From a virus, in IMG/VR virus record IMGVR_UViG_3300003873_000039, positions 1 to 31,908 of that record: 31,908 nt of DNA; one strand, given 5' to 3'. A model generated the notes under the pieces. It searched no databases and was not told where the DNA came from. It saw only the letters and a list, made by a program, of their open reading frames with translations. Numbering within the stretch: the first letter of the stretch is position 1; every line of letters starts with the position of its first letter. A program made the translations under genes and the position numbers. Positions 277 through 31,643 of the stretch are shown here, piece after piece.

Positions 277-502
277 TACAGCTACACCACAAATGCTCTC
301 TGTTCATTTTCACAAAGTGATCACAAAAGCCATCGCCGCCAATGTACTTCGCCAGGCAACTTGTAATGCTAACCATTTCATCTTGTGAAAAAGAACCTCC
401 GAACGGATTTCTCTCATTCACTTCCAATGCAGCACGAGCTGGACAGCGAACATGAAGACATGCATGGGTCCCATTTTGTTTTTGAATTTCAATAATCGGC
501 AT
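269..502 (-). CDS. Small cysteine-rich hypothetical protein
   Basis: A 77-residue protein if started at ATG 502. A longer frame reaches 577, but 502 gives the usual short overlap (14 nt) with the upstream holin-like gene, while the extra N-terminus only shadows that gene. Six cysteines (HACLHVRC, TSC, GFC, WCSC) suggest a metal site or disulfides. The family is not recognised. Its place just after the holin-like gene suggests a lysis accessory role, which is inference. Two copies of the dispersed 15-bp motif lie inside it (308-322 and 376-390); the second encodes FSQDE. Confidence 0.65.
   Translation of the reverse strand: MPIIEIQKQNGTHACLHVRCPARAALEVNERNPFGGSFSQDEMVSITSCLAKYIGGDGFCDHFVKMNREHLWCSCNG
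308..322. promoter_or_regulatory. Dispersed 15-bp motif TTTCACAAAGTGATC
   Basis: Symmetric core CAC-N3-GTG with two outer mismatches, inside the cysteine-rich small gene. Confidence 0.5.
376..390 (-). promoter_or_regulatory. Dispersed 15-bp motif TTTCATCTTGTGAAA
   Basis: Full match, oriented with transcription; identical to 17795-17809 and 24057-24071. Encodes FSQDE. Confidence 0.75.
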
Positions 503-1037
503 TATTTTCAATCTTCGCGATTTTTTCTTTGCCCCTGTGCCATGCTGTGATGCCGAGTATTGCTCCTGGAACGCCAAAGAGCGTTGTGAATGATGTCACA
601 AGTTGAGGGATCATATTCAATGCCGATGGCTTACCTTCCATCACAGCCTGATAAGCCAAATAGCAACAAAGCACAGAAACACACAAGAAAGCCAAGCCTG
701 AAACAAAACCCCAAAACGGTCGCCATGCCCATTGCGGCCAGTGCTCAGACTTACCCTCATCGCGCATCGTCTGATTGATCGTTTCAATGCGTTGCGTGCC
801 TGCCGACAATGACAACGCTTGCAGCTTTTCGCTGTGATTCGCTTCAATTTGTTTGATTTTGATAATCGCATCAGGATTGTCTTTCAACTCTTTCAGAATT
901 GCATCAGGGTTATTTTCAACACCCAGAGCAGATGAAATCATTGAACCAATCGCAGTACCAGCCGGGCCACCTAGCAAGGTTCCGACCATCGGAGCTGCTG
1001 AACCGATTACATTTTTTACTTCATTCCAAACATTCAT
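489..1037 (-). CDS. Holin-like protein (3-TM GTA holin family)
   Basis: A 182-residue protein with three hydrophobic segments: a Gly/Ala-rich one near residues 11-39 (TLLGGPAGTAIGS), and clear membrane helices near 108-132 and 142-167. They are separated by a charged, helical linker. The order and the glycine-rich start match the three-TM holin family first noted in gene transfer agents. It should form inner-membrane lesions that release or activate the lytic enzyme. It overlaps the DUF5675 gene upstream by 4 nt (ATGA) and sits in the lysis module. Family placement is by recognition, not search. Confidence 0.7.
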   Translation of the reverse strand: MNVWNEVKNVIGSAAPMVGTLLGGPAGTAIGSMISSALGVENNPDAILKELKDNPDAIIKIKQIEANHSEKLQALSLSAGTQRIETINQTMRDEGKSEHWPQWAWRPFWGFVSGLAFLCVSVLCCYLAYQAVMEGKPSALNMIPQLVTSFTTLFGVPGAILGITAWHRGKEKIAKIENNADY

Positions 1038-1426
1038 ACCGATACTTCCAGCGTGAATTCGTCAGGCAGTATAGATTCAAGCATGCTGTATGCAGCACCA
1101 GACGCGAGCACAGCCGGTTCATTATTAAGAATACCGAACCTCTGCCCTACGATAATGCATCCTTCAGTGTCATTTGCCGTGTTGCCTTTGTGGATCAAAA
1201 TATGTGATCTTCCGGGAACATCTTTAACCTGCCATGTGCTACCGAAATGATGAGAGTCTGTCCTTGCAACTCGATATTTGCCGGCAGGGATGCATGATTT
1301 TCCAACCGTATTATCAAGCCACGGTCGCTCAATCGTTACGCACAGCGGAAGACCCTTGATAGACAAGACACCGAAAGTTCGGTCATTGTCGCCTACTACT
1401 CTTTTCAATTTAACTAAATCACTCAT
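1034..1426 (-). CDS. DUF5675-like protein, candidate lysis enzyme
   Basis: A 130-residue protein that looks like the DUF5675 family found in phage lysis regions. Visible hallmarks are an early R..GDNDRTFGVLSI strand, CIPAGKYRV near residues 45-53, and a late ILIHKGNTANDTEGCIIVG block. The His-Gly-Asn...Gly-Cys arrangement recalls the H...GC active site of L,D-transpeptidase-like enzymes, so peptidoglycan remodelling is plausible. No biochemical role is established that I know of. No other endolysin is recognisable in this genome, so this may be the muralytic enzyme. There is no signal peptide. Confidence 0.65.
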   Translation of the reverse strand: MSDLVKLKRVVGDNDRTFGVLSIKGLPLCVTIERPWLDNTVGKSCIPAGKYRVARTDSHHFGSTWQVKDVPGRSHILIHKGNTANDTEGCIIVGQRFGILNNEPAVLASGAAYSMLESILPDEFTLEVSV

Positions 1427-1482
1427 GATGCCTCCTGTCCTTTTGTGTTATCATAAGTGATCAGGGAGTTATGTCTGAGCAG

Positions 1483-1731
1483 TCAAAGAAAAGTTTTTAT
1501 GAGTGCACCAAATGCTGCGCCAGTAATAATCAGCAGCACGCGTATCAACAGTTCATTAGCAACAGCTTTTTCGACATTACGCAAACGATTTTCATGATCT
1601 TCATCCACTTTGTCGCCGTGATTAATTCGAATATCTAATTGCACAAGATGTTCAATCGCATTCACGATCTTTTCAACGTGTTCATCGATTTTATCAAGCC
1701 TGGATTCAATTCCTTTAACTCTATCTTCCAT
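1483..1731 (-). CDS. Small coiled-coil protein with C-terminal membrane anchor
   Basis: Started at ATG 1731, 82 residues; a GTG one codon earlier is also possible. The stop of the upstream fibre gene and this ATG share TGATG, implying coupled translation. Residues 1-58 are highly charged and heptad-like (coiled coil). Residues 60-80 form one hydrophobic helix (LLIRVLLIITGAAFGALIKTF). This resembles XhlA/haemolysin-type phage membrane proteins that work with holins. It could be a second holin or a holin regulator. Inner-membrane location is inferred. Confidence 0.65.
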   Translation of the reverse strand: MEDRVKGIESRLDKIDEHVEKIVNAIEHLVQLDIRINHGDKVDEDHENRLRNVEKAVANELLIRVLLIITGAAFGALIKTFL

Positions 1732-5642: not shown

Positions 5643-7234
5643 TAAATACTCTCTTCAAGTTGAAGTTTTAGTTTTCTAAATTCCGGAGTGATGAACGGGC
5701 TTTCAACTTTCCGACTCACATCACGAAACAAAACAGGCGAGCCAGCGTTTGTATCATCAAACTGAATAAAAAACGGATTTTTCGCTGTCAAAACAGTTGT
5801 TTTAAGTGTCTTTACATCAATTGATTCTTGAGAATCAAGAGCATTCCAAACCGGATTTACATGAATAGCATCAAATCTTCGCGACACGAATGCACGCCCG
5901 TTCGCGCTTGTAAATGTTGTCGCCTGGATTGCCAGCGACTCAGGATCGATTCCTAAATCAGGAGGGGCAATAGTGATAGCTGGCCCAGCGTATAGCTCCG
6001 GAATATTCACATCAGCTCCGGGGGTCTGTCCTGTAATCGTCAAGTTATAACGATAAAGATATGTCCGCCATGAAATATCAGTGATTCCCGCTGAAACAAA
6101 TACGCCCGCTCCAGTTTCGAGCGAGTAAACATCATAACCAATGTTATCAGCAGCAACCCACAGATCACCGTCAATCGATGACACTGAATCACCAGCATTA
6201 CCAGCGGCCATGTATGTTGAACCGTCATACGCAATGGCATTAAATACCTTGAGAACATCTTGATGAACGACAGTCCATAAGATGCCATCATATGACGCAA
6301 TCACACCGCCTGTGCATGCTGCAAAGAAACGAAGGCCATCAAACATCAGACCATTCAGCGAACCGATTCCAGCAACCGCCATGTTGGCTGAATTCCAGTT
6401 TGTGCCGTCATTCGAGTAAAGCGAATCGACAGCAGAACCAATAACGACCCTTGATATGCCTATCGTTATACTTAACAGGTTATCACTCACACCGGAAACA
6501 GATGGAAGCCATGACACACCATCCCCGGAAACAAGGATTACACCGGCATCACCAACACTGATGAAAGTCTCATTCACATTATGAAATAGAACATCATTGA
6601 GAGCAGTAGCTATTCCGCTTACTTGTGAAATCCAGTTGATGCCGTCTGACGATACAGCAACGAAACCGGCAAGTCCTACAGCCACATAAACGCCGTTTCC
6701 GTATGTAATTCCGCGCAATGCAGGAGCACCAGCAATCGCTACGCTTGTCCACACGGTTCCATCTATAGAATGATAAACAAGGCCGCCATCCCCAACAGCA
6801 ATCCAAGCCCCATTTATGAATTTCACATTGTGAACAGAAGATGCCAAGCCGATAGCCTGCCAGCCCGCCGGGATAATTGGGGTATGTGCTGAAACAGGGA
6901 AAACCTCTGAAGCTGATTCAGGAGTTGTGATTTGTGAATTCAGTATGCTTGCCCATCCTTGAGCTGTGAAAGCGTCAAGCTTTACAGTACCTGAAGCGGG
7001 CTTGAATCCGATTGAGTCATTTCTGTTCGCGCCTATTAGGATATAATCAATCAGTGGGGAAACAACAGATAGCGACAGCTTTACGCTGCCAGAACCATCG
7101 GCAATCGGTTTGAATGTGCTTGATGTATCACCATCGCTAAGATTAGATAGCGGATATGCGGGGTCTTCAGTCCCAATAATTAGTGATACAAGTGATGCAG
7201 CAATCTGATTATCGTGAAAAAATCTAACACTCAT
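5642..7234 (-). CDS. Tail protein with Asp-box beta-propeller
   Basis: A 530-residue protein. Between about residues 120 and 375 there are six regular repeats with an S-x-DG-x-x-W signature (SIDGTVW, SSDGINW, SGDGVSW, SNDGTNW, SYDGILW, SIDGDLW). These Asp-box repeats typify sialidase-like and related propellers. The flanks are beta-rich. Glycan or surface binding is a reasonable guess. I see no catalytic signature, so enzyme activity is not claimed. The gene lies between tape measure and tail-tip genes, which suits a distal tail role. TAATG overlaps occur at both ends. Two dispersed 15-bp motifs lie inside (6572-6586, 6821-6835). Confidence 0.7.
   Translation of the reverse strand: MSVRFFHDNQIAASLVSLIIGTEDPAYPLSNLSDGDTSSTFKPIADGSGSVKLSLSVVSPLIDYILIGANRNDSIGFKPASGTVKLDAFTAQGWASILNSQITTPESASEVFPVSAHTPIIPAGWQAIGLASSVHNVKFINGAWIAVGDGGLVYHSIDGTVWTSVAIAGAPALRGITYGNGVYVAVGLAGFVAVSSDGINWISQVSGIATALNDVLFHNVNETFISVGDAGVILVSGDGVSWLPSVSGVSDNLLSITIGISRVVIGSAVDSLYSNDGTNWNSANMAVAGIGSLNGLMFDGLRFFAACTGGVIASYDGILWTVVHQDVLKVFNAIAYDGSTYMAAGNAGDSVSSIDGDLWVAADNIGYDVYSLETGAGVFVSAGITDISWRTYLYRYNLTITGQTPGADVNIPELYAGPAITIAPPDLGIDPESLAIQATTFTSANGRAFVSRRFDAIHVNPVWNALDSQESIDVKTLKTTVLTAKNPFFIQFDDTNAGSPVLFRDVSRKVESPFITPEFRKLKLQLEESI
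6572..6586 (+). promoter_or_regulatory. Dispersed 15-bp motif ATTCACATTATGAAA
   Basis: Inside the propeller tail gene; one of two oriented copies that face against local transcription. Encodes FHNVN. Confidence 0.65.
6821..6835. promoter_or_regulatory. Dispersed 15-bp motif TTTCACATTGTGAAC
   Basis: Symmetric copy in the same tail gene; encodes VHNVK. Confidence 0.65.
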
Positions 7235-10291: not shown

Positions 10292-11203
10292 TTAAGAAAA
10301 GATGAGTTCAAACTGGTCATCGCCAGCAGACTCATAGAGCTTGAATGAAACTTCATTTGTAAACGTGTCAGCCTTCTCGCCTTTCTTGATTGTTTCACGT
10401 CGAGCGCGTGGAATATTCACTGTCAGAGTATTGCCAGCGGACTGACCAAACTGAGCATTGATTACAGCATCATTAGCTGACGTTAATGCAGTCCAATCAG
10501 ACGCATCAGAGACTGAATCTTTAGTGATAGAAGCACCGGGGGAACGATCCTTGACCGTGTATTCATTCTGACCCGTTCCGCGCTTAGATTGCACGTCATT
10601 GCCAAGGTCAAGGCTCAGACTGCCGATTACAACGGCTGTGCCAGTTTCAGTGACTACATCCAGAGTGTCACCCATGATCGGCTGAGTTGACTGGAACACC
10701 GCATTGGCAGGCATTGGCGCAACAACAGGATCAACCCAAGGAGCACTGATAGTGAATTTGACAACCTGGATAGCATCCATGGTGTATTGCAAAGATGCGG
10801 TTGCAACAGCATCAACACACTTCCATACAACGCCATCTTCATAAGCGTAAACCGTTCCCAACTTTCTGGGCTTAGAAATCGGAGCAAACCGAACATCAAC
10901 ACCAGCATTGGGAACCATTGCCAGCGCACAAATCTGCAACAGCGGCGCAAGCTCAGGGGCAGCACCGGCAACGCCAGAGCCATGCACCTCGCATTCAACT
11001 TCAATCTGAATGCCTTTCTTGTTCATTAAGTGAGGCAGTTCGCCCATTGTTGGCTTGATTACTTTACGCTTAACAGCATCAACAATAACACCAACACTCA
11101 GTGAGCTAATTCGGATAGCATTTAGAGCAGCAGTAGGACCAGCGTCAGCCTTTTTGGCGGTCTGAACTTTAGCCAGTAGCAGTTTATCAAAAATATCAGC
11201 CAT
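10292..11203 (-). CDS. Major tail tube protein
   Basis: A 303-residue, beta-rich protein located directly before the frameshifted chaperone gene, the standard place for the siphovirus tail tube subunit. It begins MADIFDKLLLAKVQTA and shows alternating strands throughout (IEVECEVHGSGVAG, VWKCVDAVATASLQY, ALTSANDAVINAQFG). An additional domain seems present, since many tube proteins are nearer 200 residues. No sheath gene is found, so the tail is non-contractile. It would polymerise around the tape measure. Confidence 0.75.
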   Translation of the reverse strand: MADIFDKLLLAKVQTAKKADAGPTAALNAIRISSLSVGVIVDAVKRKVIKPTMGELPHLMNKKGIQIEVECEVHGSGVAGAAPELAPLLQICALAMVPNAGVDVRFAPISKPRKLGTVYAYEDGVVWKCVDAVATASLQYTMDAIQVVKFTISAPWVDPVVAPMPANAVFQSTQPIMGDTLDVVTETGTAVVIGSLSLDLGNDVQSKRGTGQNEYTVKDRSPGASITKDSVSDASDWTALTSANDAVINAQFGQSAGNTLTVNIPRARRETIKKGEKADTFTNEVSFKLYESAGDDQFELIFS

Positions 11204-11348: not shown

Positions 11349-11801
11349 TTAAAAACCGTCAGTCGCCCGGCCTTCGTATTGAATTTTTATTGGCCTTTCA
11401 AAAAAGCCATATGGCAAACCTTCGGCGGCGAATTGCGAGCCGCTTCGCTCTTTGTACGGCATGATCGTTACTCTTGTGACAGCCCCACCCAAAGTCGGAT
11501 CAGCAGCTATAGCTTTCTTCAATTCCGTATCTAATTCATTTAGTGAAGTGGAGATTGAGTTCTTTGAACGGACATAACCAATCAGCGAAACTTCAAAAGA
11601 AACATTCGCAAAGCCGGATGATTTTAGCTGTATAGTTTCCGGCCCATCGTCTTCAATCAGAACAGCAGGGAAACCAACAGACGGAACCTTTGTAATTGGC
11701 GTGAATTGGCGTGAAATGAATTTCACATCTATCGCATATCCATTCGCGACAGTGATCCCTTTCACGATAGCAAAAAGCGCGTTTAAAATCGATTCACGCA
11801 T
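11349..11801 (-). CDS. Tail terminator / tail completion protein
   Basis: A 150-residue alpha/beta protein. It starts with a helix (RESILNALFAIVKGIT), followed by strands (FPAVLIEDDGPETI; VSFEVSLIGYVRS) and a helix (LNELDTELKKAIAADPTLGGAVT). That order, and the place between head-tail connector and tail tube genes, fit lambda gpU/DUF3168-like tail terminators. These cap the tail at its top and set its final length together with the tape measure. It starts 2 nt after the upstream stop. The assignment is from fold pattern and context. Confidence 0.6.
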   Translation of the reverse strand: MRESILNALFAIVKGITVANGYAIDVKFISRQFTPITKVPSVGFPAVLIEDDGPETIQLKSSGFANVSFEVSLIGYVRSKNSISTSLNELDTELKKAIAADPTLGGAVTRVTIMPYKERSGSQFAAEGLPYGFFERPIKIQYEGRATDGF

Positions 11802-11803
11802 GC

Positions 11804-12271
11804 TTATGCTCTCGAAGTTCGCCGCGTCTGCATCTTCACGCGCTCGATTTCCTCAAAGTTCCCATCGCCATCGAAATCATATAATGAAAGCAAGCGGATC
11901 GTATTCCATTCAGCTTCATACATTTTCTCAAAGTGAACAGATTTACGCCCGAACGAATCGCCATCAGCGGCCATATCGGATGACAGCTTAGGCAGGATGT
12001 ATGCGGACAACGCCCGATAGCATGTGATATTCACCATCAGTGCCGCGTTAAGTCTGTCAGGCTTAATTGCAGGCAACATCAATGCATCAAGCACCTGACT
12101 TTCGCGACCCATGCGACTTGATGCCGCTTGAGTCCACCAGCTCACCGTCAGACGGTTTAGAACATCATTGGAGGCCCGTTGCAGATCATTGGTGTTGTCA
12201 AGTCCGTACTCAGTTAAGTCCGGGACAAATTCAATCAAATCAGCCTGGGTCGCGAAAACAGGAGCCACCAT
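11804..12271 (-). CDS. Head-tail connector (adaptor) protein
   Basis: A 155-residue, mostly helical protein with the pattern of gp6-like/DUF1320-like adaptors: an early Asp/Glu-rich start (ATQADLIEFVPDLTEYG), a helix with RASNDVLNRLTVSWW, and a long helix near NAALMVNITCYRALSAYIL. It ends in a basic segment. Such proteins form the ring under the portal and stop DNA leakage. It overlaps the previous gene by one base (TGATG) and precedes the tail terminator. The assignment rests on context as well as pattern. Confidence 0.6.
   Translation of the reverse strand: MVAPVFATQADLIEFVPDLTEYGLDNTNDLQRASNDVLNRLTVSWWTQAASSRMGRESQVLDALMLPAIKPDRLNAALMVNITCYRALSAYILPKLSSDMAADGDSFGRKSVHFEKMYEAEWNTIRLLSLYDFDGDGNFEEIERVKMQTRRTSRA
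11924..11938. promoter_or_regulatory. Dispersed 15-bp motif, one core mismatch
   Basis: TTTCTCAAAGTGAAC in the connector gene. Could be chance. Confidence 0.4.
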
Positions 12272-12753: not shown

Positions 12754-12762
12754 TATGTGATC
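12748..12762 (-). promoter_or_regulatory. Dispersed 15-bp motif over a start codon
   Basis: TTTCATTATGTGATC; on the sense strand GGAGATCACATAATGAAA puts SD, spacer and ATG of the 12271-12753 gene inside the motif. Confidence 0.65.
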
Positions 12763-12784
12763 TCCTGACTTGTATTAGCAGCAT

Positions 12785-18939: not shown

Positions 18940-20347
18940 TGACTACATCCACAAGATTAGGAACTTTGACTTCATCATTGATAGCTTTCATGACTTCAGG
19001 ATCAGTGTCACCCAGCACGCGTTTGGCTACCCTGCCCCGGATTTCAGCATCAAAGGTTTTCGAGTTCACAAGCGGTTTAGCTTTCATCGCGTTATCAATT
19101 TCATTCGCAAGATCGCGCACACCGAATTTGCGCGGATAATCAACTTCGCCGTCAAATACCTGTTCTTCCCATGCTGCAAACAGGCGAAAAATCCCCATCT
19201 CAGCATTTTCACAGCCCTCGCCTTTCTCAGCCAGGATGCTGTTTAATTGTTGGAAAGTGATTTCAAGTGATACGCCTGATTGCACTTTTGTTGACTGCGC
19301 ATCAGTGCCACCAGTGCGAGCCAGGGCGCGAATATCATCAACCAGGGCGAGCCTCCATTCACGGATTTCTTTTAGTGAAGAGTGAGGCGGTTCCATCCAC
19401 TCCCATTTTGCAGTTGGATTGCGCGGATCGAATTCAAGCACATTACCGCTGCCAACCTCAATTTCAGCTTCATTGCCGCCCATAGTCTGTTCACGCGGTC
19501 CCTGAAGCATTGGGAAAGCAGTATTCTCAATGATTTCATGCGCATCAGAATCGATGTAAAAGATGCGGCGATTGATGTCAGCAATGTCATTGATGTCAGA
19601 ATTGCCGATGAATAGGCTTGATGTTTTACGATTTGCAAGCATCACAAACGGAATTTCCCCAAGAGTGTTCACGCCTTCATCAATCAGCTTAGCCTCTGTA
19701 TTGCCGTTGTTTTTCTTGTCTTCAACGCCATACAGCTTCCAATCTGTTCGAGTCCAAACGCGATACAGCTCAAAGCCATCGATCTCAGCCCCGTAAGTGT
19801 CTTCAACCATTTCTTCATGTAGAACAAGCTTGCTCAGAACAGGCCGGCCATTCTTGCGCACGAACTCAAAATTGATGATATGTTCAGGACTATACCTGAC
19901 CAGATACGGCCTAACGCCCGCAGCAACCTCTTCAGCCTTCGTCGTGAAGTTAGTTGCTGGCTTATCAAGCACCATGCCCACAAGGCCAGTAATAGAAGCC
20001 ATGCGAGCTGTTTCGCGCATCCAGGCTGAGAAATCAGTGCCATTAAAGTCGCAATCTTCCATGAAAGCATCCAGATTTTTATTACCTGCCAGCACACCGA
20101 ATTCGCGGGCGATTGTTTCTTTGAACAAATATGAAATGTAAATATCAATTACAGGCGCGGAATAGTTCACATATATAGCTTGCTTTAACCTGCGCATATA
20201 TTTCTTTTTCTGTTCGCGGGGATGCCGTTCAAGATAGCCAGCTTTGCGATATAGATCACCACCTTTGTATGACAGGTTCAGGAATTCCCATCGCTCAAGC
20301 ATTTCCTCAAAATCTTCATGCCGTTTGGTCAGTTGTTTTGCTTTCAT
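18932..20347 (-). CDS. Portal protein (DUF4055-like)
   Basis: A 471-residue protein from ATG 20347. A longer frame from 20371 is less likely, because 20347 has SD TAGGAG overlapping the terminase stop and avoids an overlap. It is helical, with the portal pattern of a long clip/stem and crown: YVNYSAPVIDIYISYLFK near the start, GEIPFVMLANRK, DINRRIFYIDSDAHE, and late GVSLEITFQQLNSILAEKGEGCE. It forms the dodecameric ring for DNA entry and docks with the terminase encoded just upstream. A dispersed 15-bp motif covers the start codon. Confidence 0.8.
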   Translation of the reverse strand: MKAKQLTKRHEDFEEMLERWEFLNLSYKGGDLYRKAGYLERHPREQKKKYMRRLKQAIYVNYSAPVIDIYISYLFKETIAREFGVLAGNKNLDAFMEDCDFNGTDFSAWMRETARMASITGLVGMVLDKPATNFTTKAEEVAAGVRPYLVRYSPEHIINFEFVRKNGRPVLSKLVLHEEMVEDTYGAEIDGFELYRVWTRTDWKLYGVEDKKNNGNTEAKLIDEGVNTLGEIPFVMLANRKTSSLFIGNSDINDIADINRRIFYIDSDAHEIIENTAFPMLQGPREQTMGGNEAEIEVGSGNVLEFDPRNPTAKWEWMEPPHSSLKEIREWRLALVDDIRALARTGGTDAQSTKVQSGVSLEITFQQLNSILAEKGEGCENAEMGIFRLFAAWEEQVFDGEVDYPRKFGVRDLANEIDNAMKAKPLVNSKTFDAEIRGRVAKRVLGDTDPEVMKAINDEVKVPNLVDVVNA

Positions 20348-20356
20348 TATGTGAAC
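20342..20356 (-). promoter_or_regulatory. Dispersed 15-bp motif over the portal start
   Basis: TTTCATTATGTGAAC; sense reads TAGGAGTTCACATAATGAAA, so the motif fills the SD-ATG spacer and start codon of the portal gene. Confidence 0.7.
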
Positions 20357-20358
20357 TC

Positions 20359-21627
20359 CTATTTCAGCCAAACTTTGCGGGCTTGTATGATTCGTGAAAC
20401 CGGGAACAAGTATTCAACAGGATAGCCAAGAGCGTCTGTTAAATGCGTCATGTGATCCATTTTCCTGATTCCCTCATGTGTTAGCCTTTCGCAGTAGCTG
20501 CGAAGCTTTGAGCAGCCCGGATCAAACGTAAGAGAGCCATCGCCGAGCTTCGTGTTGACTGCATTGTATCTGTCCCTAATCGCTGGATGTGCAAGATGTG
20601 CAAACACTTGCAGGCCCAGATTTTCAATGATTATATGGTCAGTGACACCGCCTGCCGAAGCAGTATGGCGAGCAGAGCCAGCCGGGTCAGGGTAAGCGCA
20701 AACGATCCCAGGCCATCTGCCTGTTGCGTATTTGATCATATCTTCCGTGTCTGAATTCGGCAGCTCTATTTCAGCAACAACATGCATATGGCCTTCATTA
20801 ATCCAGAAAACGCATGCAGCCATCGGATTTACATTGAAATCCATGCCCAATCGCAACGGAATTCCAGGAGGTGTAATTACAGACTGTAAATTTTTACACT
20901 TGTCAAACTGATGATATATCCGCCCGGTTGAAAGATTGATAAATTCGCCATTCATATAGGCCTGCACAGCCTTTTCATCGTAAGCTTTTCTCAGTGTATC
21001 AATGAAATCAGGTGGCAAGGCCAGGTTGCCGGCTGTCTTCGCTCTAACCATTTCCAGTAAATATTTTCCAGCGTCTTCGCCTTCAATAATGTCATAGCCC
21101 CAGTTGAGTTCTTCCGGGGTTCCTGTCAGCCAGATTTCACGAAGCCTGGAACGCGGGTCACGCACACGGGCAAGCATTTGGTCAAATACTGGCTTATCCA
21201 TGATGAACGGTTCATCAAGGTAAGCGGCGGCAAGGTTCGGGCCTTTGAGTGCGTCAGGGTTCTCCCCTGAGCCAATCCATAGCGTGCCTTGCCGTCCTTT
21301 ATACCTGATACGGAATTCCCAATCAGATGGCCTCCAGTCATAATCGATGCGCCGGCCATCCAATAGAGCTTTGATAGTAGGGATTGTGGTGCGCTTAGCC
21401 TGCCGATATGACGGGGAAACCCCCATGATAGGTACTGGAGCATTGAAGATGCAGGAAGCAATCATACGCTTGCTGCCGATCATTGTTTTGCCGGAACCGT
21501 AACCACCAACAAGGGCTTTGATGAATGCCTGCGAGTTCCACAGGTTCCGCTGATAATCCCACATCCCGCCTTTAATCACCCGTCCATCGAATAGCACCGG
21601 GTCATCTTTGCGCCAAAATGAAGACAT
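20359..21627 (-). CDS. Terminase large subunit
   Basis: A 422-residue protein. The N-terminal ATPase has Walker A GGYGSGKT (41-48), Walker B AYLDEP (135-140) and a coupling motif LTGTP (167-171). The C-terminal RNase H-like nuclease shows acidic residues in GMDFNVNP (Asp263), YPDPAG (Asp314) and HLTDALGY (Asp398). It pumps and cuts DNA at the portal. The start overlaps the small subunit stop (TAATG). Length is normal for compact siphovirus terminases. Packaging type (cos or pac) cannot be decided here. Confidence 0.9.
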   Translation of the reverse strand: MSSFWRKDDPVLFDGRVIKGGMWDYQRNLWNSQAFIKALVGGYGSGKTMIGSKRMIASCIFNAPVPIMGVSPSYRQAKRTTIPTIKALLDGRRIDYDWRPSDWEFRIRYKGRQGTLWIGSGENPDALKGPNLAAAYLDEPFIMDKPVFDQMLARVRDPRSRLREIWLTGTPEELNWGYDIIEGEDAGKYLLEMVRAKTAGNLALPPDFIDTLRKAYDEKAVQAYMNGEFINLSTGRIYHQFDKCKNLQSVITPPGIPLRLGMDFNVNPMAACVFWINEGHMHVVAEIELPNSDTEDMIKYATGRWPGIVCAYPDPAGSARHTASAGGVTDHIIIENLGLQVFAHLAHPAIRDRYNAVNTKLGDGSLTFDPGCSKLRSYCERLTHEGIRKMDHMTHLTDALGYPVEYLFPVSRIIQARKVWLK

Positions 21628-22034
21628 TACATAAACTCGTCTGGCAAGTTCTCTTCTTCTTCAATGATTGATTCAGGTGGCCTTTCAGCTCTGCCCCATC
21701 GTGTAGGATTACGCCGCTCAAGCTTCCATGCAGCGGCCTGCCAGACACCGGAACCGGCAACAGCGGTGATGATCGTCAGGTCATTAGCCTCAGCCTCAGC
21801 CATGGCCTTTTTTACAGCGTTAAGAAACCGCGTGTGGATATTGTTGCGCTTCAGGACTTGATCGCGTGCGCCTTTTTTCGCCCATGCATAGAAAGTAGGC
21901 TTAGAAACGCCACAGCAAGCGACAGCGGTTTCAATATAATTACCCTGCTTTATTACTTCGCAGATTTCATCCTGCAACGCCTGAGTCAGCTTTGTTGGCC
22001 TTCCGCCAAGGTTCTTTTTCTTCTTAGTAGCCAT
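21627..22034 (-). CDS. Terminase small subunit
   Basis: A 135-residue protein with an N-terminal helix-turn-helix (GRPTKLTQALQDEICEVIKQG...AVACCGVSKPTFYAWAKKG, residues 11-54). A helical oligomerisation region (FLNAVKKAMAEAEANDL) and an acidic C-terminus (ESIIEEEENLPDEFM) follow; the latter probably touches the large subunit. It recognises the packaging site and is made just before the large subunit. The SD upstream of ATG 22034 is poor, so expression may depend on read-through from the gene upstream. Confidence 0.85.
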   Translation of the reverse strand: MATKKKKNLGGRPTKLTQALQDEICEVIKQGNYIETAVACCGVSKPTFYAWAKKGARDQVLKRNNIHTRFLNAVKKAMAEAEANDLTIITAVAGSGVWQAAAWKLERRNPTRWGRAERPPESIIEEEENLPDEFM

Positions 22035-22072
22035 GAGTTCAGTATATGAAATAGAAGATGTCAGCTAAGCAG

Positions 22073-22230: not shown

Positions 22231-22262
22231 CTCACATATTTAATATGAATCCATTATGTGAG
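22231..22262. repeat. 8-bp inverted repeat before the terminase genes
   Basis: CTCACATA and TATGTGAG flank 16 nt. It overlaps the candidate promoter -10 and a weak 15-bp motif, so it could be an operator or an RNA hairpin. Confidence 0.5.
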
Positions 22263-22263
22263 A
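22249..22263 (-). promoter_or_regulatory. Dispersed 15-bp motif, weaker copy
   Basis: ATCCATTATGTGAGA keeps the core CAT-N3-GTGA but differs at the outer bases. It covers the candidate -10 of a promoter before the terminase genes. Confidence 0.4.
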
Positions 22264-22281
22264 TAGAACGCGATGAACTAA
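22253..22281 (-). promoter_or_regulatory. Candidate late promoter before terminase genes
   Basis: TTAGTT (22281-22276), 17 nt, CATAAT (22258-22253) on the minus strand. It is a partial consensus match, but it lies at the only gap between replication and head genes. Confidence 0.3.
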
Positions 22282-22742
22282 GCAGCCTCTTTAAGCTCGA
22301 CACTAAATGTAGTGAGCGTATCACTAGCAGCTTTCAGCTTTTCACCTTTTTTCAGCCCATGTTTTTTAGGCCTGATATGCGTTATTGATCGTATATTACT
22401 ATCAGCATACAGCCCAAGCACAACGCGACCATCAGCAACAGGTGGCATTCTTGTTGTCAGGTCACAATCAATCTGACAATCATCATTATAGACACCGGCT
22501 TTTTGTAGCGAATCAAACAACGCTTTCTTGATGTTATCCAGATCGCGCCGCCGCCAATCCGGAGGATAAGCTTCAATAATGACAGTTAGCTTCTCCCCCG
22601 TCGTCTTCAGTTTCATTATGTGAATCAGATCGGTTATGGTTTTTATGTAATCTCTGCCTTGTTTGCTAATTATCACCCTGCCACGGCCAATCGAACGCCA
22701 ATATCGATTGACGCTGGGTGGCCATGGCATAACGATAATCAT
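22278..22742 (-). CDS. rusA: RusA-family Holliday junction resolvase
   Basis: A 154-residue protein. It has MPWPPSVNRYW at the start and the catalytic acidic set in RRRDLDNIKKALFDSL (Asp67, Asp69, Lys73) and GVYNDDCQI (Asp87/88), spaced as in RusA of E. coli. A C-terminal extension of about 30 residues is longer than the usual 120. It resolves branched DNA before packaging or during recombination. It overlaps the upstream gene by 4 nt. The dispersed motif at 22611-22625 encodes its IHIMK. Confidence 0.85.
   Translation of the reverse strand: MIIVMPWPPSVNRYWRSIGRGRVIISKQGRDYIKTITDLIHIMKLKTTGEKLTVIIEAYPPDWRRRDLDNIKKALFDSLQKAGVYNDDCQIDCDLTTRMPPVADGRVVLGLYADSNIRSITHIRPKKHGLKKGEKLKAASDTLTTFSVELKEAA
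22611..22625 (-). promoter_or_regulatory. Dispersed 15-bp motif TTTCATTATGTGAAT
   Basis: Inside the rusA gene, oriented with transcription; codons ATT CAC ATA ATG AAA. Confidence 0.7.
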
Positions 22743-23314
22743 ATAAACAAGCTGAGCTGATTAAGCCCACGGCAAACGCGGTCTGCGACTTTTGCTATTT
22801 CTGCTTTCTTGACCACTTCCATTTCAGTAAATGATTCAGACAGCGCGATTAAATATTCAGACTCTGAGGCTGTATCAGCATTAAGCAGCGACCGTTTGAT
22901 TATGTTAGGAACATTGTCCGACAATATCGCGCCGCCAATCACTTCTTGCATTTCTTGATCTTTCGCCAAAGTTTCCAGATTTTTAACAACAAGAGGGTCA
23001 TCATTGAACGAATTCTGAACCATTATTACTTGTTCAAGCTTATAATCTTCAACGAAAAGCCCAACCCATCTGAATGAGCCAATGCCGTCAGACTTATTCT
23101 GGAGCCAGGCAATAGCATCAGATGCAGCTTGAAAGTGCCTGTACTGCTTTTCTCGCACGAAATAATCATCGATCTTCATGATTTCGCTAAATGAAATAAT
23201 CGGATATGTCGCATCTTTGACCGCTTGAACAATCGCAGCTTGCCACAAGCCTTTTGGTCCACATCCTTCAAACGCACATTCCACATTTTCGATTTGCTCA
23301 CGATTCAAACTCAT
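22739..23314 (-). CDS. Hypothetical protein in replication operon
   Basis: A 191-residue soluble protein. The N-terminal half has helices around WQAAIVQAVKDA and HFQAASDAIAWLQNKSDGIGSF. The C-terminal half is helical and acidic. The family is not recognised. It is coupled to rusA by ATGA and follows the small membrane protein by 10 nt. The ATG is preceded by GAGGTCACATT, where a weak copy of the 15-bp motif overlaps the start. Replication or host takeover roles are guesses from context only. Confidence 0.65.
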   Translation of the reverse strand: MSLNREQIENVECAFEGCGPKGLWQAAIVQAVKDATYPIISFSEIMKIDDYFVREKQYRHFQAASDAIAWLQNKSDGIGSFRWVGLFVEDYKLEQVIMVQNSFNDDPLVVKNLETLAKDQEMQEVIGGAILSDNVPNIIKRSLLNADTASESEYLIALSESFTEMEVVKKAEIAKVADRVCRGLNQLSLFI

Positions 23315-23323
23315 AATGTGACC
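23309..23323 (-). promoter_or_regulatory. Dispersed 15-bp motif, weaker copy
   Basis: ACTCATAATGTGACC keeps TCAT-N3-GTGA and covers the start codon of the gene at 22739-23314. Confidence 0.4.
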
Positions 23324-23482
23324 TCAAGCGGGCAACATAATGAAATCAAAAAACGTGCTGAAGCCGTCTGATATATAAAGCCCAGCAAGGCCAATGGCTA
23401 TAAGCCAATAACCAACATTTTCCCGGCCCGGATGATCCCATCCTTTTTTGACTAATTTAGAAAATCCATTTTCTATTTTCAT
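23324..23482 (-). CDS. Small membrane protein
   Basis: A 52-residue protein. About 20 charged residues (KIENGFSKLVKKGWDHPGREN) precede a hydrophobic helix (VGYWLIAIGLAGLYI) and an aromatic C-terminus. SD GGAGG is followed by a 9-nt spacer. It lies between helicase and the 191-residue gene with gaps of 17 and 0-10 nt, so it belongs to the operon. A single-pass inner-membrane protein is expected; superinfection or replication-site anchoring are only guesses. Confidence 0.65.
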   Translation of the reverse strand: MKIENGFSKLVKKGWDHPGRENVGYWLIAIGLAGLYISDGFSTFFDFIMLPA

Positions 23483-23499: not shown

Positions 23500-24456
23500 T
23501 CAGCTTTGTTTAGCGATTATTTGTGCTGCGTATTGTTCCTTGATGTTGTCATGAGCATTCAAAAAACGGCGGGTCGCAGGCTGGTATTCGATAAGAGCCA
23601 GACCCGGCCTGCCGTCAAATTTATCTTTCACTTTCATAATGTGAATTTGAGTGATGTGAGTGAATTGGCCAACGACAGTCCGATGCACAGTGATCATGTT
23701 GTCCGCTTTATTGTACCAGTTTGCGCCGCCGCTGATGTCGTATGGCTTCGGCACTAAATATTCACCGCGATTGTCTTTGTTCATGATTTTTGGGTGCGCA
23801 ACAAGCACAATATGCACGTTATATTTGCGTGCAAATCGCTTAAGTTGCCCAGTTGCCCAGCTCACATAATCAGCCTCAGTCATTCTACCTTTTTTGTGAT
23901 CGATTTCGTTCCATGGATCAATGATGAATTGATTTATGCCATATTTTCCAACCATTTGTCGCATTTCGGAAAGCAGGCCATCAATGCTCAAATCGCTCAT
24001 TTTATCAGGGTCAAGCCAGAAAAAATGCTGATCACAAAACTTAATTGAGACTTCAATTTCATCTTGTGAAATCGATTGAAATCCGTTCCAGTTGCCACCG
24101 ATTGTCCGCCCGCTCAGGCGGTTAATCATTTTCATCATGTGAAATGAAATGTTGCGATTTTCAGGTGTGAAGAAAGCGGTTTTCCATTTTTCATTGATTG
24201 CCAAATTTGCCGCCGCCGCGTCAGTGAATTCGGATTTCCCCCGGCTTGGAATGCCTGTCACGATGGTTAATTGTTGCGGGCGGATTCGGATCAAATCATC
24301 AACATCGCGCCAGCCAAGCTGAATGCCCGGTGTGATGCCATTGGCGATAATGTCGCGCACATCATTTGACAGCACAGATGCAGTGACATGCGGTGAATTT
24401 GGCTCTTCAAGCTCTTCAAGTAAAGCCGCTGGAAGTTGGTGTATAGTCGCGTTCAT
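23500..24456 (-). CDS. Twinkle/DnaB-type replicative helicase
   Basis: A 318-residue RecA-fold protein. It has Walker A GIPSRGKS (68-75), TAFFTPEN (93-100), Walker B-like QFIIDPWNE (176-184), and VLVAHP followed by PKPYDISGGANWYNKADN near residues 217-255. These strongly recall the helicase half of phage and mitochondrial Twinkle primase-helicases. No primase or zinc domain is attached. It should unwind DNA as a hexamer, loaded by the protein encoded just upstream. Overlap is ATGA. Three dispersed motifs lie inside. Confidence 0.85.
   Translation of the reverse strand: MNATIHQLPAALLEELEEPNSPHVTASVLSNDVRDIIANGITPGIQLGWRDVDDLIRIRPQQLTIVTGIPSRGKSEFTDAAAANLAINEKWKTAFFTPENRNISFHMMKMINRLSGRTIGGNWNGFQSISQDEIEVSIKFCDQHFFWLDPDKMSDLSIDGLLSEMRQMVGKYGINQFIIDPWNEIDHKKGRMTEADYVSWATGQLKRFARKYNVHIVLVAHPKIMNKDNRGEYLVPKPYDISGGANWYNKADNMITVHRTVVGQFTHITQIHIMKVKDKFDGRPGLALIEYQPATRRFLNAHDNIKEQYAAQIIAKQS
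23632..23646 (-). promoter_or_regulatory. Dispersed 15-bp motif TTTCATAATGTGAAT
   Basis: Inside the helicase gene, oriented with transcription; codons ATT CAC ATT ATG AAA give IHIMK. Confidence 0.7.
24057..24071 (-). promoter_or_regulatory. Dispersed 15-bp motif TTTCATCTTGTGAAA
   Basis: Identical to copies at 376-390 and 17795-17809. Encodes ISQDE in the helicase. Confidence 0.75.
24130..24144 (-). promoter_or_regulatory. Dispersed 15-bp motif TTTCATCATGTGAAA
   Basis: Full consensus match inside the helicase gene, 59 bp from the previous copy; encodes FHMMK. Confidence 0.75.
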
Positions 24457-25289: not shown

Positions 25290-25475
25290 TTATTGATCAT
25301 CCTTCGTGCGTAACAAGGGATGGCCGAACAGTTCGCGTTCCACCAGAGCAATTACTTGCTGTGTGAATGCGCGATGTTCGAGTTGTGCAACACGGCTAAT
25401 CGCTTCATCGATGTGATCAGGGAAGCGAATGTGGCGAACCGTGTCACCTAAGTTAGAGCCTTTTAAGCTGGACAT
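25290..25475 (-). CDS. Arc/MetJ-type ribbon-helix-helix regulator
   Basis: A 61-residue protein. The pattern VRHIRFPDHIDEAISRVAQ...FTQQVIALVERELF (about residues 13-50) fits a ribbon-helix-helix fold: one strand that lies in the DNA groove, then two helices. It is the first leftward gene after the repressor region, the place of Cro-like or Arc-like early regulators. No SD is visible; the promoter at 25483-25510 would start transcription at or next to the ATG, so the message may be leaderless. It probably regulates early transcription. Confidence 0.7.
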   Translation of the reverse strand: MSSLKGSNLGDTVRHIRFPDHIDEAISRVAQLEHRAFTQQVIALVERELFGHPLLRTKDDQ

Positions 25476-25482: not shown

Positions 25483-25510
25483 ACAATAATACTGCCTGTC
25501 TGTTTGTCAA
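25483..25510 (-). promoter_or_regulatory. Leftward early promoter
   Basis: TTGACA (25510-25505), 16 nt, TATTGT (25488-25483), reading leftward. Its start point would fall at about the ATG of the Arc-like gene. A perfect inverted repeat, CTGTT-TGTC-AACAG (25500-25513), overlaps the -35 and is a likely operator. Confidence 0.6.
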
Positions 25511-25554
25511 CAGTTAGTTTATACTATCGAAAAATAGTGCCTTATGTTGTTTAG

Positions 25555-25569
25555 ATTCACAATATGAAA
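25555..25569 (+). promoter_or_regulatory. Dispersed 15-bp motif ATTCACAATATGAAA upstream of the repressor
   Basis: Lies 16 bp before the repressor start, in the divergent control region. Position suggests autoregulation. Identical to the copy inside the integrase gene (30030-30044). Confidence 0.75.
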
Positions 25570-25585
25570 CAGAGATGGGGAAAAC

Positions 25586-26149
25586 ATGAAATTTGAAACG
25601 GAAGAAGAGTTAAAACAGCAAATCGGCAAAAATATTAAAGCCGCTATGGACAGCGCATCAATAAATGCGCGTCAGCTTGGCATTAAGCTTGATGCAACGG
25701 GAGCCGCAGTCGGATTGTGGCTTTCAGGCAAACGCGTGCCGAATATTTGGATCGCTTATCGCGCTGCTAAAATTCTAAATGTATCCCTAAATGAATTCTT
25801 TTTTGGCAAACAAACACTGCCTGTGATCGATGAAAAGGGGAATATTATTGATTCTTTTTCAATCCCTGAAAATGGAACAGACGATCTTTTTGCCATGCGT
25901 GTGCCAGCCGGAAACCGAACAAACAGCCCCATGATCGATCCCCTAGATATTGTGATTGCGAAAAAAACTGACTGCGCCAATGTTGATGATTATGTTATTG
26001 CTGAGCTACCTTGCTCCGGCCTGGCTGTGTTGCGTATCGATCAGGGATTCGGACAAATAAAATTCAGCACAGTCAGTGGCGATGCTCCAGCGAACAGCAA
26101 AGATATTATCATCAAAGGTGTTGTAACCGGGACATATCGCAGGTTCTGA
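25586..26149 (+). CDS. CI-like phage repressor
   Basis: A 187-residue protein. Residues about 12-70 form an XRE helix-turn-helix (SINARQLGIKLDATGAAVGLWLSGKRVP). The C-terminal half has the beta layout of the S24/LexA dimerisation domain (MRVPAGNRTNSPMIDPLDIVIAKK; DDYVIAELPCSGLAVLRIDQG). The expected G-D-S-M is replaced by TNSPM (Ser114), and the catalytic Lys by Arg150 (AVLRI), so self-cleavage is doubtful. It should hold lysogeny, divergent to the leftward promoter. It is the best candidate to bind the dispersed palindrome. SD is GATGGGG. Confidence 0.8.
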   Translation: MKFETEEELKQQIGKNIKAAMDSASINARQLGIKLDATGAAVGLWLSGKRVPNIWIAYRAAKILNVSLNEFFFGKQTLPVIDEKGNIIDSFSIPENGTDDLFAMRVPAGNRTNSPMIDPLDIVIAKKTDCANVDDYVIAELPCSGLAVLRIDQGFGQIKFSTVSGDAPANSKDIIIKGVVTGTYRRF

Positions 26150-26378: not shown

Positions 26379-26447
26379 TTCAATTATATCACCTTCCACA
26401 CGCTTATAACTATATGTATATATATCTAAGCCTGAGGAAACAAACTG

Positions 26448-26475
26448 TTGACATTTGATTTTTACTACCTACAAT
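26448..26475 (+). promoter_or_regulatory. Rightward early promoter
   Basis: TTGACA (26448-26453), 16 nt, TACAAT (26470-26475): the best sigma-70 match in the window. It drives the recombination and integration genes. No 15-bp motif overlaps it. Confidence 0.75.
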
Positions 26476-29532: not shown

Positions 29533-30671
29533 GGTCACGCGATGGCCTGTTATATATAGATTTTCAGTTTAAAGGGAAGAGATGCCGGGAATGTCTCGGC
29601 ATCGATGTAACTAAAGCAAACATCAAATATGCTTCGCGGCTCAGGTCTGCGATTCTGCATGAAATATCTGTTGGGACTTTCAGTTATCGCGCTCATTTCC
29701 CGGATAGTAAAAATGCTGTCATTTTCGCTGTAAGCGGAAAATGCGACATCTTCACAGGCGATGCGCTCAAGGATTATCTGAAGGTTAGAAAGCGCACGCT
29801 GGCAAAGTCAGCATATGATGGCTATGAGTCCGCAATAAGAATCCATCTTGTCCCAACTTTCGGGAACATCAAATTGCGTTCGCTTTCAACATCGCTGATT
29901 CGGACATGGATTGCTGATGATCTATCTCACTTAATGAATAAGACAATCAATAACATTCTGACACCATTGCGCGGCATGCTTGATGATGCTTTTTCAGACG
30001 GACTCATTGACAGCAATCCTATGAATCGGATTCACAATATGAAACCAAAGACACGGGAACCTGAGCCATTCAGCCCGGAAGAGTCACAGAGGATCATTGA
30101 TAAGCTGTCAGGACAGGATCGCAATATCATTCAGTTTGGATTCTGGAGCGGCTTACGCATCAGCGAACTTATCGCGCTTGAGTGGAGTGATGTTGATTTA
30201 GTGAATGAAGTTGCATCAATCCGACGGGCAAGCGTCCGTGGCGACGAAAAAGGGACAAAGACCGAAGCGGGTTCGCGTGAACTCAAGATATTACCTCCGG
30301 CCATGGAAGCATTGCAAAGCCAGCGTCAATATTCACAGCTTGCGGGCGGTAGAGTGTTTCTGAATCCACGCGAAAACGCGCCATGGATCAATGATGTCCA
30401 ATTGCGTTCCAGGGTTTGGAAATGTGCGCTGAAGCTGTCTGGTGTGCGTTATCGTAATATGTACCAGATGCGGCATTCATACGCCTCATTCTTACTGTCA
30501 GCCGGCGAAAACCCAGCATGGGTCGCTAATCAAATGGGGCATACTAATATGAGCATGACGCTTAAAGTTTATGCACGATGGATACCCAGCGTCGATCCCA
30601 ATGCTGGCAAGGTTGCAGCGGCTATGGCTGAAAAGTTATCAACAAAGGTTGTGGATAAGTCGCATAAATAA
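29490..30671 (+). CDS. int: Tyrosine integrase
   Basis: A 393-residue protein. The N-terminal 60 residues (RGVRSRDGLLYIDFQFKGKR) are a DUF3596-type arm-binding domain. A SAM-like core-binding domain (about 85-170) follows. The catalytic residues are Arg223 (SGLRISEL), Lys257 (KTEAGS), Arg328-His329 (YQMRHSYAS), His351 (QMGH) and Tyr361 (KVYARW). It should recombine attP near 31.75 kb with a host tRNA gene. The stop is followed by an endonuclease gene rather than directly by attP. A 15-bp motif at 30030 encodes IHNMK. Confidence 0.9.
   Translation: MGRERQHNTEARGVRSRDGLLYIDFQFKGKRCRECLGIDVTKANIKYASRLRSAILHEISVGTFSYRAHFPDSKNAVIFAVSGKCDIFTGDALKDYLKVRKRTLAKSAYDGYESAIRIHLVPTFGNIKLRSLSTSLIRTWIADDLSHLMNKTINNILTPLRGMLDDAFSDGLIDSNPMNRIHNMKPKTREPEPFSPEESQRIIDKLSGQDRNIIQFGFWSGLRISELIALEWSDVDLVNEVASIRRASVRGDEKGTKTEAGSRELKILPPAMEALQSQRQYSQLAGGRVFLNPRENAPWINDVQLRSRVWKCALKLSGVRYRNMYQMRHSYASFLLSAGENPAWVANQMGHTNMSMTLKVYARWIPSVDPNAGKVAAAMAEKLSTKVVDKSHK
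29925..29939 (+). promoter_or_regulatory. Dispersed 15-bp motif, weaker copy
   Basis: TCTCACTTAATGAAT, two mismatches, inside int and oriented with transcription; encodes SHLMN, the same phase as the 30030 copy. Confidence 0.4.
30030..30044 (+). promoter_or_regulatory. Dispersed 15-bp motif ATTCACAATATGAAA
   Basis: Identical to the copy upstream of the repressor. It lies within int, oriented with transcription. Confidence 0.75.
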
Positions 30672-30697
30672 AACGTGTCTTGATGTCAGTTGTTCTA

Positions 30698-30712
30698 TTT
30701 CAGATAGTGAAA
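30698..30712. promoter_or_regulatory. Dispersed 15-bp motif TTTCAGATAGTGAAA
   Basis: One mismatch, in the gap between int and the endonuclease gene. Confidence 0.55.
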
Positions 30713-30720
30713 CAGACTGT

Positions 30721-30738
30721 CTCCCAAAAAAAAGGGAG
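30721..30738 (+). promoter_or_regulatory. Hairpin that can hide the endonuclease ribosome site
   Basis: CTCCC-A8-GGGAG pairs the SD (AAGGGAG) with an upstream CTCCC, 5 nt before the ATG. SD sequestration is common for phage homing endonucleases, limiting expression. Confidence 0.55.
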
Positions 30739-30743
30739 CGCAT

Positions 30744-31643
30744 ATGAAAGAGGAATTGGCTTACTTCGCAGGGCTTTTTGACGCTGAAGGCTGTATCTCA
30801 TCATCAAAAAGGAGAGGTAATAAAGCTGCTGTATCTGTCAGCTTCTCAAACTGCGATTCACGCTTGGCAGGCTTCGCCGCTGGCATGCTTCACGGTGATT
30901 TATCGTTTTCGGACAGACCGAATCAAATGAGGGAATACACTGTGAAGGTGTGTTCCGAAAATGCGCTTAGTGCTCTTAAAATAATCAAGCCATATCTATT
31001 GATTAAGCGTCAACAAGCTGAAATAGCTATAAACTTTCCCGTCATCCCATTGCGCAGGATCAAGAATCATGATTTGATTTCACTTTATGAAATTGACTTT
31101 ATGAAAAATGCTCTGTTTCAGCTAAACAAACACCCGATGCACTTCTATTCACAAAGTGAAATCAAAAGGATGCTCGAAATCCAATCAGGTGAAATTCCAG
31201 AACGATGGAAAGAAAGGCCGGAGATTGCAGCATCATATATCGCAGGCCTTGTTGATGGCGATGGAACTTTTGTCATACCTTCAAAGCTCACATCATTTTC
31301 GCCGTCAATCTCAATCAGCAGCCGGCATTTGCCAGCTATACTTGAAATAAACAGGTATCTTATATCTATCGGTATAATGTCAAAGATTCAGTCTTGCTAC
31401 GATAAGCGGGGATACAATACGACTTACGCTGTACGCGTATTCAGTAGCAATGCTGTAGAGCTTGCTCATTTGATTGCATCGCGTCTTATCGCCAAAAAGG
31501 ATCAGGCGTTACTTATGGCCAGCCTTGCGCCCTTGTTGCGAAGCAGAAACGGCACGCGCGTTCCAGATACAATGCGTAATGATCGTTATAAGGCAGCAAC
31601 GAGAATGAAAAAGCTCAACAGCAGATTCAGAACAGTAAAATAG
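30744..31643 (+). CDS. LAGLIDADG homing endonuclease
   Basis: A 299-residue monomer with two LAGLIDADG helices: LAYFAGLFDAEG (5-16, acidic residues Asp13/Glu15) and SYIAGLVDGDG (164-174, Asp171/Asp173). Each is followed by a beta-rich half, giving the usual pseudo-dimer that cuts a long specific site. It is not inside an intron or intein that I can see; it is a free-standing gene between int and attP. Two dispersed 15-bp motifs lie in its coding region. Confidence 0.85.
   Translation: MKEELAYFAGLFDAEGCISSSKRRGNKAAVSVSFSNCDSRLAGFAAGMLHGDLSFSDRPNQMREYTVKVCSENALSALKIIKPYLLIKRQQAEIAINFPVIPLRRIKNHDLISLYEIDFMKNALFQLNKHPMHFYSQSEIKRMLEIQSGEIPERWKERPEIAASYIAGLVDGDGTFVIPSKLTSFSPSISISSRHLPAILEINRYLISIGIMSKIQSCYDKRGYNTTYAVRVFSSNAVELAHLIASRLIAKKDQALLMASLAPLLRSRNGTRVPDTMRNDRYKAATRMKKLNSRFRTVK
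31078..31092 (+). promoter_or_regulatory. Dispersed 15-bp motif TTTCACTTTATGAAA
   Basis: A full consensus match inside the endonuclease gene, oriented with transcription; encodes SLYE. Confidence 0.75.
31147..31161. promoter_or_regulatory. Dispersed 15-bp motif ATTCACAAAGTGAAA
   Basis: A near-symmetric copy 69 bp past the previous one, in the endonuclease gene; encodes SQSE. Confidence 0.7.

Follow-up and report, generated by a model that had tools for sequence, protein, structure and literature searches.

The virus record IMGVR_UViG_3300003873_000039 (31,908 bases; below, the window, which is the whole stretch of DNA analysed) carries about 27 strong, near-identical copies of a 23-bp near-palindromic site, dispersed genome-wide and maintained by selection. 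By gene content, the window is a temperate siphophage: family matches were found for portal, terminase small subunit, scaffold and tape-measure proteins, and a DnaB-like helicase, RusA, an integrase, a LAGLIDADG protein, an excisionase and an immunity repressor are also encoded. In a close relative, the consensus of the sites did not change alongside the immunity region. We give a probability of roughly 45% to the reading that the sites are bound by the protein encoded at 14318-14572, an 84-residue helix-turn-helix (HTH) protein, and not by the repressor, and that they constitute a genome-wide silencer under the immunity layer.

A dispersed near-palindrome maintained by selection

An earlier note on this sequence described about 19 copies of a 15-bp motif, TTTCAC-N3-ATGAAA, at no more than two mismatches. 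The motif is real and the count was too low: 6 positions match exactly, 16 with at most one mismatch and 31 with at most two. Codon-preserving shuffles (n = 1000), which retain every protein and the codon use of each gene, gave means of 0.47, 2.5 and 10.6 and maxima of 3, 7 and 20, respectively. This null is conservative, because most chance matches re-form at the peptides of real sites; a symmetric search returned 21 in-gene matches versus 3.1 per shuffle in genes away from real sites. Counted by strand, 42 matches with at most two mismatches were observed versus 6.0 ± 2.6 in dinucleotide shuffles. Every coordinate listed by number in the earlier note holds a site in the present list. In a prior-free search for gapped palindromes of 5-mers, TTCAC-N3-GTGAA and TTCAT-N3-ATGAA occupied the first two ranks in both phages.

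The core of the 15-bp form was confirmed, and the site itself proved longer, a 23-bp, largely dyad-symmetric sequence TYnrwTTCAY-WWn-RTGAAwynRA with the half-site TYnrwTTCAY. A weight matrix of this length finds 30 sites with at least 16 bits (hereafter, strong sites; Table 1); among 300 codon-preserving shuffles, the mean was 4.7 and the highest count 9. The matrix was fitted on this same genome, and the cleaner evidence comes from the outer positions, which played no part in picking sites. Among the 16 sites with at most one mismatch, position −3 is T in 12 and A in 4, position −2 is C in 9, T in 6 and G in 1, position 18 is G in 11 and A in 5, and position 19 is A in 14 and T in 2. Asymmetry is restricted to positions 6/10 and occurs in 16 of the 30 sites; five sites are of the CAC/GTG type and three of the CAT/ATG type, and other types occur too. 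An RNA hairpin was considered and rejected: complementarity at 11 position pairs is near the expectation from column frequencies, with no clear co-variation (pair −1/17, 7 of 27 versus 7.1 expected; largest excess at pair 0/16, 14 versus 10.7).

The relative is represented by two contigs from one metagenome, IMGVR_UViG_3300022697_000139 (22,722 bases) and IMGVR_UViG_3300022697_000311 (8,521 bases; L115), with 85.4% and 84.8% identity to the window in alignment, respectively. Their complementary cover suggests a single genome. L115, the rest of this genome, came up only in the scan for motif patterns; scans of genome contigs with HTH protein 14318 and with terminase as queries found no relative. 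A comparison with related phages, put forward in the earlier note as a check, showed conservation at orthologous positions: 29 of the 30 strong sites can be aligned to the relative, and 27 of these 29 remain at or above 16 bits there. The copies described previously as weaker are kept at 11875, 22249, 23182 and 23309 and lost at 29925. The relative has a strong site of its own at window position 29157 (22.1 bits there, 6.6 here), and the match at 3791 passes the 16-bit cut in the relative alone (17.2 there, 15.8 here).

Identity per position was counted at the 23 sites on the first contig of the relative, with expectations derived from codon position. In the core, 179 of 184 positions are identical versus 156.8 expected, outer positions show a less marked excess (86 of 92 versus 79.2) and the far flanks are at expectation (308 of 363 versus 310.3). 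Over the ten-position core, 221 identities were counted, compared with 198.4 ± 6.1 and a maximum of 216 in 2000 placements in the same gene and phase. At third codon positions beneath the cores, 49 of 52 are identical versus 35.4 expected (P = 6e-6). Averaged over 20 orthologous pairs, the leave-one-out score is 22.1 bits in the window and 21.8 bits in the relative; the same 32 substitutions scattered randomly give 17.2 ± 0.7 bits instead of the latter value, so informative positions were avoided. Within genes, the sites occupy two reading frames, varying by gene, and the third frame would hold an in-frame TGA. The use of two frames in different genes indicates that the constraint acts on DNA and not on protein.

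Site density is about 1 per kb over early and late genes. Twelve of the 30 strong sites are centred outside the 34 called genes, in 14% of the genome, and 18 lie inside genes; several cover start codons or adjoin terminator-like sequences. An orientation along local transcription, as in mycobacteriophage L5, had also been claimed. In the symmetric-core search, 13 sites are co-oriented with transcription and 3 are opposed (9:2 in genes and 4:1 outside). A link with transcription is not established by these counts, which speak neither for nor against a directional action as in L5, as the controls disagree: shuffle matches away from real sites gave 122:15, and looser matches within open reading frames of seven network-free phages gave 76:60. 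The pooled codon-preserving shuffles (909:204) are not an independent control, because most of their matches re-form at real sites.

Table 1. Coordinates of the 23-mer sites and of the regulatory features discussed, with scores on the 23-bp weight matrix
Feature	Position	Strand	Context	Bits, window	Bits, relative
Site	304..326		CAC/GTG type, intergenic	21.1	19.0
Site	372..394	-	exact 15-mer, intergenic	23.5	22.1
Weak site	5710..5732		within gene 5642-7234	16.1	16.5
Site	6568..6590	+	within gene 5642-7234	26.0	23.2
Site	6817..6839		CAC/GTG type, within gene 5642-7234	21.8	22.4
Weak site 11021	11017..11039	-	within gene 10292-11203	16.3	12.7 (not kept)
Site	11530..11552	-	within gene 11349-11801	23.3	24.0
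Site	11871..11893		CAT/ATG type, within gene 11804-12271	21.4	21.4
Site	12744..12766	-	covers start codon, gene 12271-12753	22.7	24.8
Site 14272	14268..14290	+	adjoins terminator-like sequence after HTH gene	25.7	identical 23/23
Weak site 15002	14998..15020		in variable 116-residue gene	16.1	no counterpart (gene absent)
Site 15194	15190..15212		downstream of terminator-like 15242-15213, upstream of HTH-cassette TTGACA	26.3	21.7
Site 15245	15241..15263	-	other side of terminator-like 15242-15213	26.2	19.2
Site	17791..17813	-	exact 15-mer, within gene 16881-18458	25.1	identical
Site	20338..20360	-	covers start codon of portal gene 18932-20347 (portal family match)	22.9	identical
Site	22033..22055		start of terminase small subunit gene 21627-22034	22.5	identical
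Site	22245..22267	-	intergenic	16.5	18.8
Site	22607..22629	-	within RusA-like gene	27.9	26.5
Site	22818..22840		within gene 22739-23314	18.8	20.1
Site	23178..23200	+	within gene 22739-23314	18.3	21.7
Site	23305..23327	-	covers start codon, gene 22739-23314	19.1	21.0 (despite 5 substitutions)
Site	23628..23650	-	within DnaB-like gene	26.8	26.7
Site	24053..24075	-	exact 15-mer, top score, within DnaB-like gene	29.6	25.7
Site	24126..24148	-	exact 15-mer, within DnaB-like gene	26.2	25.5 (spacer alone changed)
Site 25555	25551..25573	+	between two early regulator genes, repressor 5′ leader	25.9	18.5
Site 29925	29921..29943	+	within integrase gene	22.5	4.5 (lost)
Site	30026..30048	+	within integrase gene	26.6	25.9
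Site	30694..30716		between integrase and LAGLIDADG genes	25.5	identical
Site	31074..31096	+	within LAGLIDADG gene	28.4	28.4
Site	31143..31165		CAC/GTG type, within LAGLIDADG gene	22.9	identical
84-residue HTH_3-like protein, favoured candidate reader	14318..14572	-	HTH_3 E 3.4e-4, under curated cut-off
61-residue Arc/AmrZ-like ribbon-helix-helix protein, second candidate reader	25290..25475	-	weak AmrZ match, E 0.027
Immunity repressor	25586..26149	+	PHROG repressor families; N-terminal domain diverged in relative
Candidate repressor operator, leftward early promoter	25505..25520		common with 26438-26453, different in relative
Candidate repressor operator, rightward early promoter	26438..26453		common with 25505-25520, different in relative

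The immunity region and known dispersed operators

The immunity repressor 25586, which the earlier note regarded as the probable reader of the sites, differs between the window and the relative at 34 of 75 N-terminal residues and at 16 of 112 C-terminal residues. In its HTH block, picked after the alignment was viewed, 14 of 27 residues differ. The DNA between the repressor and the Arc-like gene (25475-25585) is mostly unalignable to the relative, and the block directly before the rightward early promoter (26391-26453) is likewise replaced. The two early promoters of the window share TGTCAACAGTT(A/T)GTTT at the −35 box; the two early promoters of the relative share another sequence, around AAGAAATAAATTAACAC. 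The shared sequences have the appearance of genuine operators, each specific to its phage, of an immunity switch whose type has changed; part of the sharing may stem from A/T-rich promoter elements. Judged by repressor and promoter sequence, the two phages are probably heteroimmune siblings. Site 25555 is still recognisable in the relative within the otherwise replaced block. Because the HTH block and both promoters diverged while the site consensus is unshifted (22.1 versus 21.8 bits), the repressor is unlikely to be the reader, and the former assignment was not borne out.

Several systems of dispersed operators have been described. Cluster A mycobacteriophages L5 and Bxb1 carry more than 20 dispersed copies of one short stoperator motif, with counterparts among relatives; the motif is 13 bp long, asymmetric, oriented with transcription, located in promoters and short intergenic spaces and read by the immunity repressor (PMC6550527, PMC9283540). 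In cluster A, the sequence of the dispersed motif changes together with the repressor (PMC6550527). The present network is similar in having many dispersed copies of one motif that are kept between relatives. Unlike the L5 motif, the site is near-palindromic, with a symmetric core and symmetric outer TY/RA, intergenic positions are enriched without being the rule, and the motif does not co-vary with the immunity repressor in the one pair of phages compared. The proposal of an independent L5-like version is supported for a dispersed, conserved network and not for an asymmetric site or for the repressor as reader.

Phage P1 contains 22 C1 operators over its genome, 17-bp asymmetric ATTGCTCTAATAAATTT sites read by the master immunity repressor (PMC8546580). 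Genome-wide dispersal is common to both cases; the near-palindromic form and the unlikely role of the master repressor set the present sites apart. The repeated 15-bp element SPBRE of Bacillus phage SPbeta was found in silico years before its reader was known; its sites are intergenic, in promoter regions, and are read by MrpR, a recombinase-like master repressor (PMC10516654). The present element was likewise found in silico, in a temperate phage, and is set apart from SPBRE by description, since most of its sites are intragenic and the repressor is HTH-type by family. In alphaproteobacterial phages, CtrA sites, TTAA-N7-TTAA, lie preferentially in promoter regions and are read by a host protein (PMC9437464). 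The likeness here is that a phage genome would contain multiple sites for a regulator that is not its own repressor; the sequence, the promoter bias and the host reader are different. The conserved inverted repeats of phage phiC31 are dispersed operators too; unlike the present sites, they are mostly intergenic, and the phage repressor is their reader.

In L5, P1 and SPbeta, as far as the sources describe them, a master or immunity repressor reads the dispersed sites in each case. The two siblings studied here appear, from repressor and promoter sequence, to have switched immunity type, yet they kept nearly all of the approximately 27 dispersed sites, which suggests that a genome-wide binding layer can be inherited apart from immunity. 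No description of a dispersed network uncoupled from the immunity repressor was noticed in the literature searched, which was represented in part and mostly by the beginnings of abstracts. If the suggestion is true, heteroimmune siblings would share genome-wide silencing while their immunity differs. What reads the network, what role it has and how it affects superinfecting siblings can be tested directly.

Candidate readers of the sites

The sites would be read, all of them, by a single sequence-specific and probably dimeric DNA-binding protein other than the immunity repressor. HTH protein 14318, named previously as a rival of repressor 25586, now appears to be the better candidate of the two and is the best candidate for the network reader overall. 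Fifteen of its 84 residues differ between the phages and none of these fall among the 22 residues of the recognition block 31-52 (P = 0.006; the block was picked after the alignment was seen). The cassette encoding it is located between the scaffold and capsid genes and is bounded by intergenic sites 15245, 15194 and 14272, which adjoin two terminator-like sequences. In the region 14572-15190, the promoter-like TTGACA and the HTH gene are found in both phages, and the intervening gene differs (116 residues in the window, 79 in the relative); PADLOC gave no match for either of the latter proteins. Made from this cassette, the HTH protein would cover start regions and obstruct elongation, and transcription would be damped across the whole prophage. 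The network would then form a second silencing layer beneath the repressor, common to heteroimmune siblings. A silencer or roadblock role is probable, and the location of sites at start codons, by terminator-like sequences and inside genes fits it. The wider picture of two superimposed layers, a fast-evolving immunity switch and a slow genome-wide network read by a small silencing or nucleoid-like phage protein, is put forward tentatively, at somewhat less than even odds.

A number of observations weigh against this assignment. Matches below 16 bits are often lost in the relative (11924, 27858 and 9255), as expected of chance matches. Identity is not above expectation at positions 6/10 (42 of 46 versus 40.0) or in the spacer (62 of 69 versus 59.1). 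The HTH_3 match of protein 14318 falls below the Pfam cut-off, its AlphaFold model is poor (predicted local distance difference test, pLDDT, 68) and a fold search with this model gave no match at E-values up to 0.001. At about one site per kb, three sites near a gene are not unusual, and the network is known from only two related phages, so that co-occurrence offers no independent test. The link of the HTH protein to the sites is drawn from sequence and position, and the silencing role is founded on analogy. Arc-like protein 25290 is likewise conserved at its expected DNA-contacting residues.

Homologues of HTH protein 14318 were not found in annotated phages and plasmids. Among capsid relatives, the HTH protein, the Arc-like protein and the repressor had no homologues at E-values up to 1; of these queries, the HTH and Arc-like ones were shown to work on another locus set and the repressor one was not. 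Scans of viral contigs with HTH and repressor alignments returned the relative only. The repressor as a query found nothing in annotated phages and three weak HTH-domain matches in plasmids.

There is a smaller chance that the sites are read by Arc/AmrZ-like protein 25290, encoded by the gene that opens the leftward early operon. At an early stage of infection, this protein would cover the genome and adjust transcription. It is 85% identical in the relative and has a weak match to AmrZ; residues 11-18, where a DNA-contacting strand is expected, do not vary. The motif spacing TTCA-N5-TGAA equals that of the P22 Arc operator, TAGA-N5-TCTA, and the start of its gene has network site 25555 some 80 bp upstream. 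However, the AlphaFold model is of low confidence and does not show the strand, the invariance of the short strand by itself is not significant (P = 0.25), and phmmer on the loci searched found the copy of the relative as the sole homologue, with no tie to the motif elsewhere.

Reading of the sites by a host regulator or nucleoid protein, like CtrA in some alphaproteobacterial phages, seems improbable. It would account for the independence of the motif from immunity type, and host-regulator sites in phages have a precedent (PMC9437464). Nevertheless, a host-read network should be common to unrelated phages of the same host, and among the 235 viral loci listed for two motif patterns, at least three strong sites were found only in the two contigs of the relative and in none of the other 233.

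We regard it as quite improbable that repressor 25586 reads the sites after all, in the manner of L5 or P1, with its changed residues leaving specificity intact. This is the usual arrangement (L5, P1 and SPbeta), site 25555 in its leader is partly kept within the replaced block, and the 13:3 co-orientation is possibly a real signal. The strongly diverged recognition region, the phage-specific promoter sequences that look like its true operators and the unshifted site consensus all speak against it, as does the joint change of stoperators and repressor described for cluster A (PMC6550527). Least probable of all, the sites would organise DNA (condensation, packaging, segregation or recombination) and not transcription: their spread over early and late genes, with 18 of 30 in genes, would agree with this, but the enrichment of intergenic and start-codon positions argues for gene control.

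Genome ends, capsid relatives and a 97-nt element

Contig IMGVR_UViG_3300022697_000311 aligns with the window from 26887 to the end and then directly with 1-3506; therefore, the window closes into a circle. A 29-base exact repeat is present at both ends. Repeats of TTTGTCGCCATTTTGTCGCC are located at 1-29, 31659-31687 and 31880-31908, near a stretch resembling a tRNA 3′ end (GGGACTCGAACCC, judged by eye); this may be the attP region. ARAGORN detected no whole tRNA. The eight integrase matches listed of 1911 all belong to Halomonas and Pseudomonas phages. The LAGLIDADG-type gene (30744-31643) adjoins the integrase gene, and both its strong sites are kept in the relative.

The network was also sought in capsid relatives, where the records behind 16 of 38 loci had at most 12 strand-matches each. 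A de novo palindrome search in seven capsid relatives yielded no similar motif whose flanks are conserved (G003 shows G-run palindromes). The sequence TGCAG-N3-CTGCA in capsid relative G010 was rejected: its flanks are unconserved and it looks like alanine codons. Five loci of IMG/VR source 2744054871 (L078, L088, L105, L122 and L145) have a 27.1-bit site in common, TCCTTTTCACAAAATGAAATCGA, but no network; this is probably one repeated sequence.

Three copies of a non-coding element of about 97 nt with a CTCGTAG core are found at 14017-14113, 14164-14260 and 26174-26270, on the downstream sides of the HTH and repressor genes, with extra cores at 26350 and 26372. Rfam gave no match for the element or the window at gathering scores. 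Folding is notable at the 14224 copy only (z = −2.4). The hairpin-like arms vary between the phages and are largely complementary at the better copies, as in CATCT-CGT-AGATG at 14224 in the window and CCTACT-CGT-AGTAGG in the relative. The relative's own copies of the element are closely alike.

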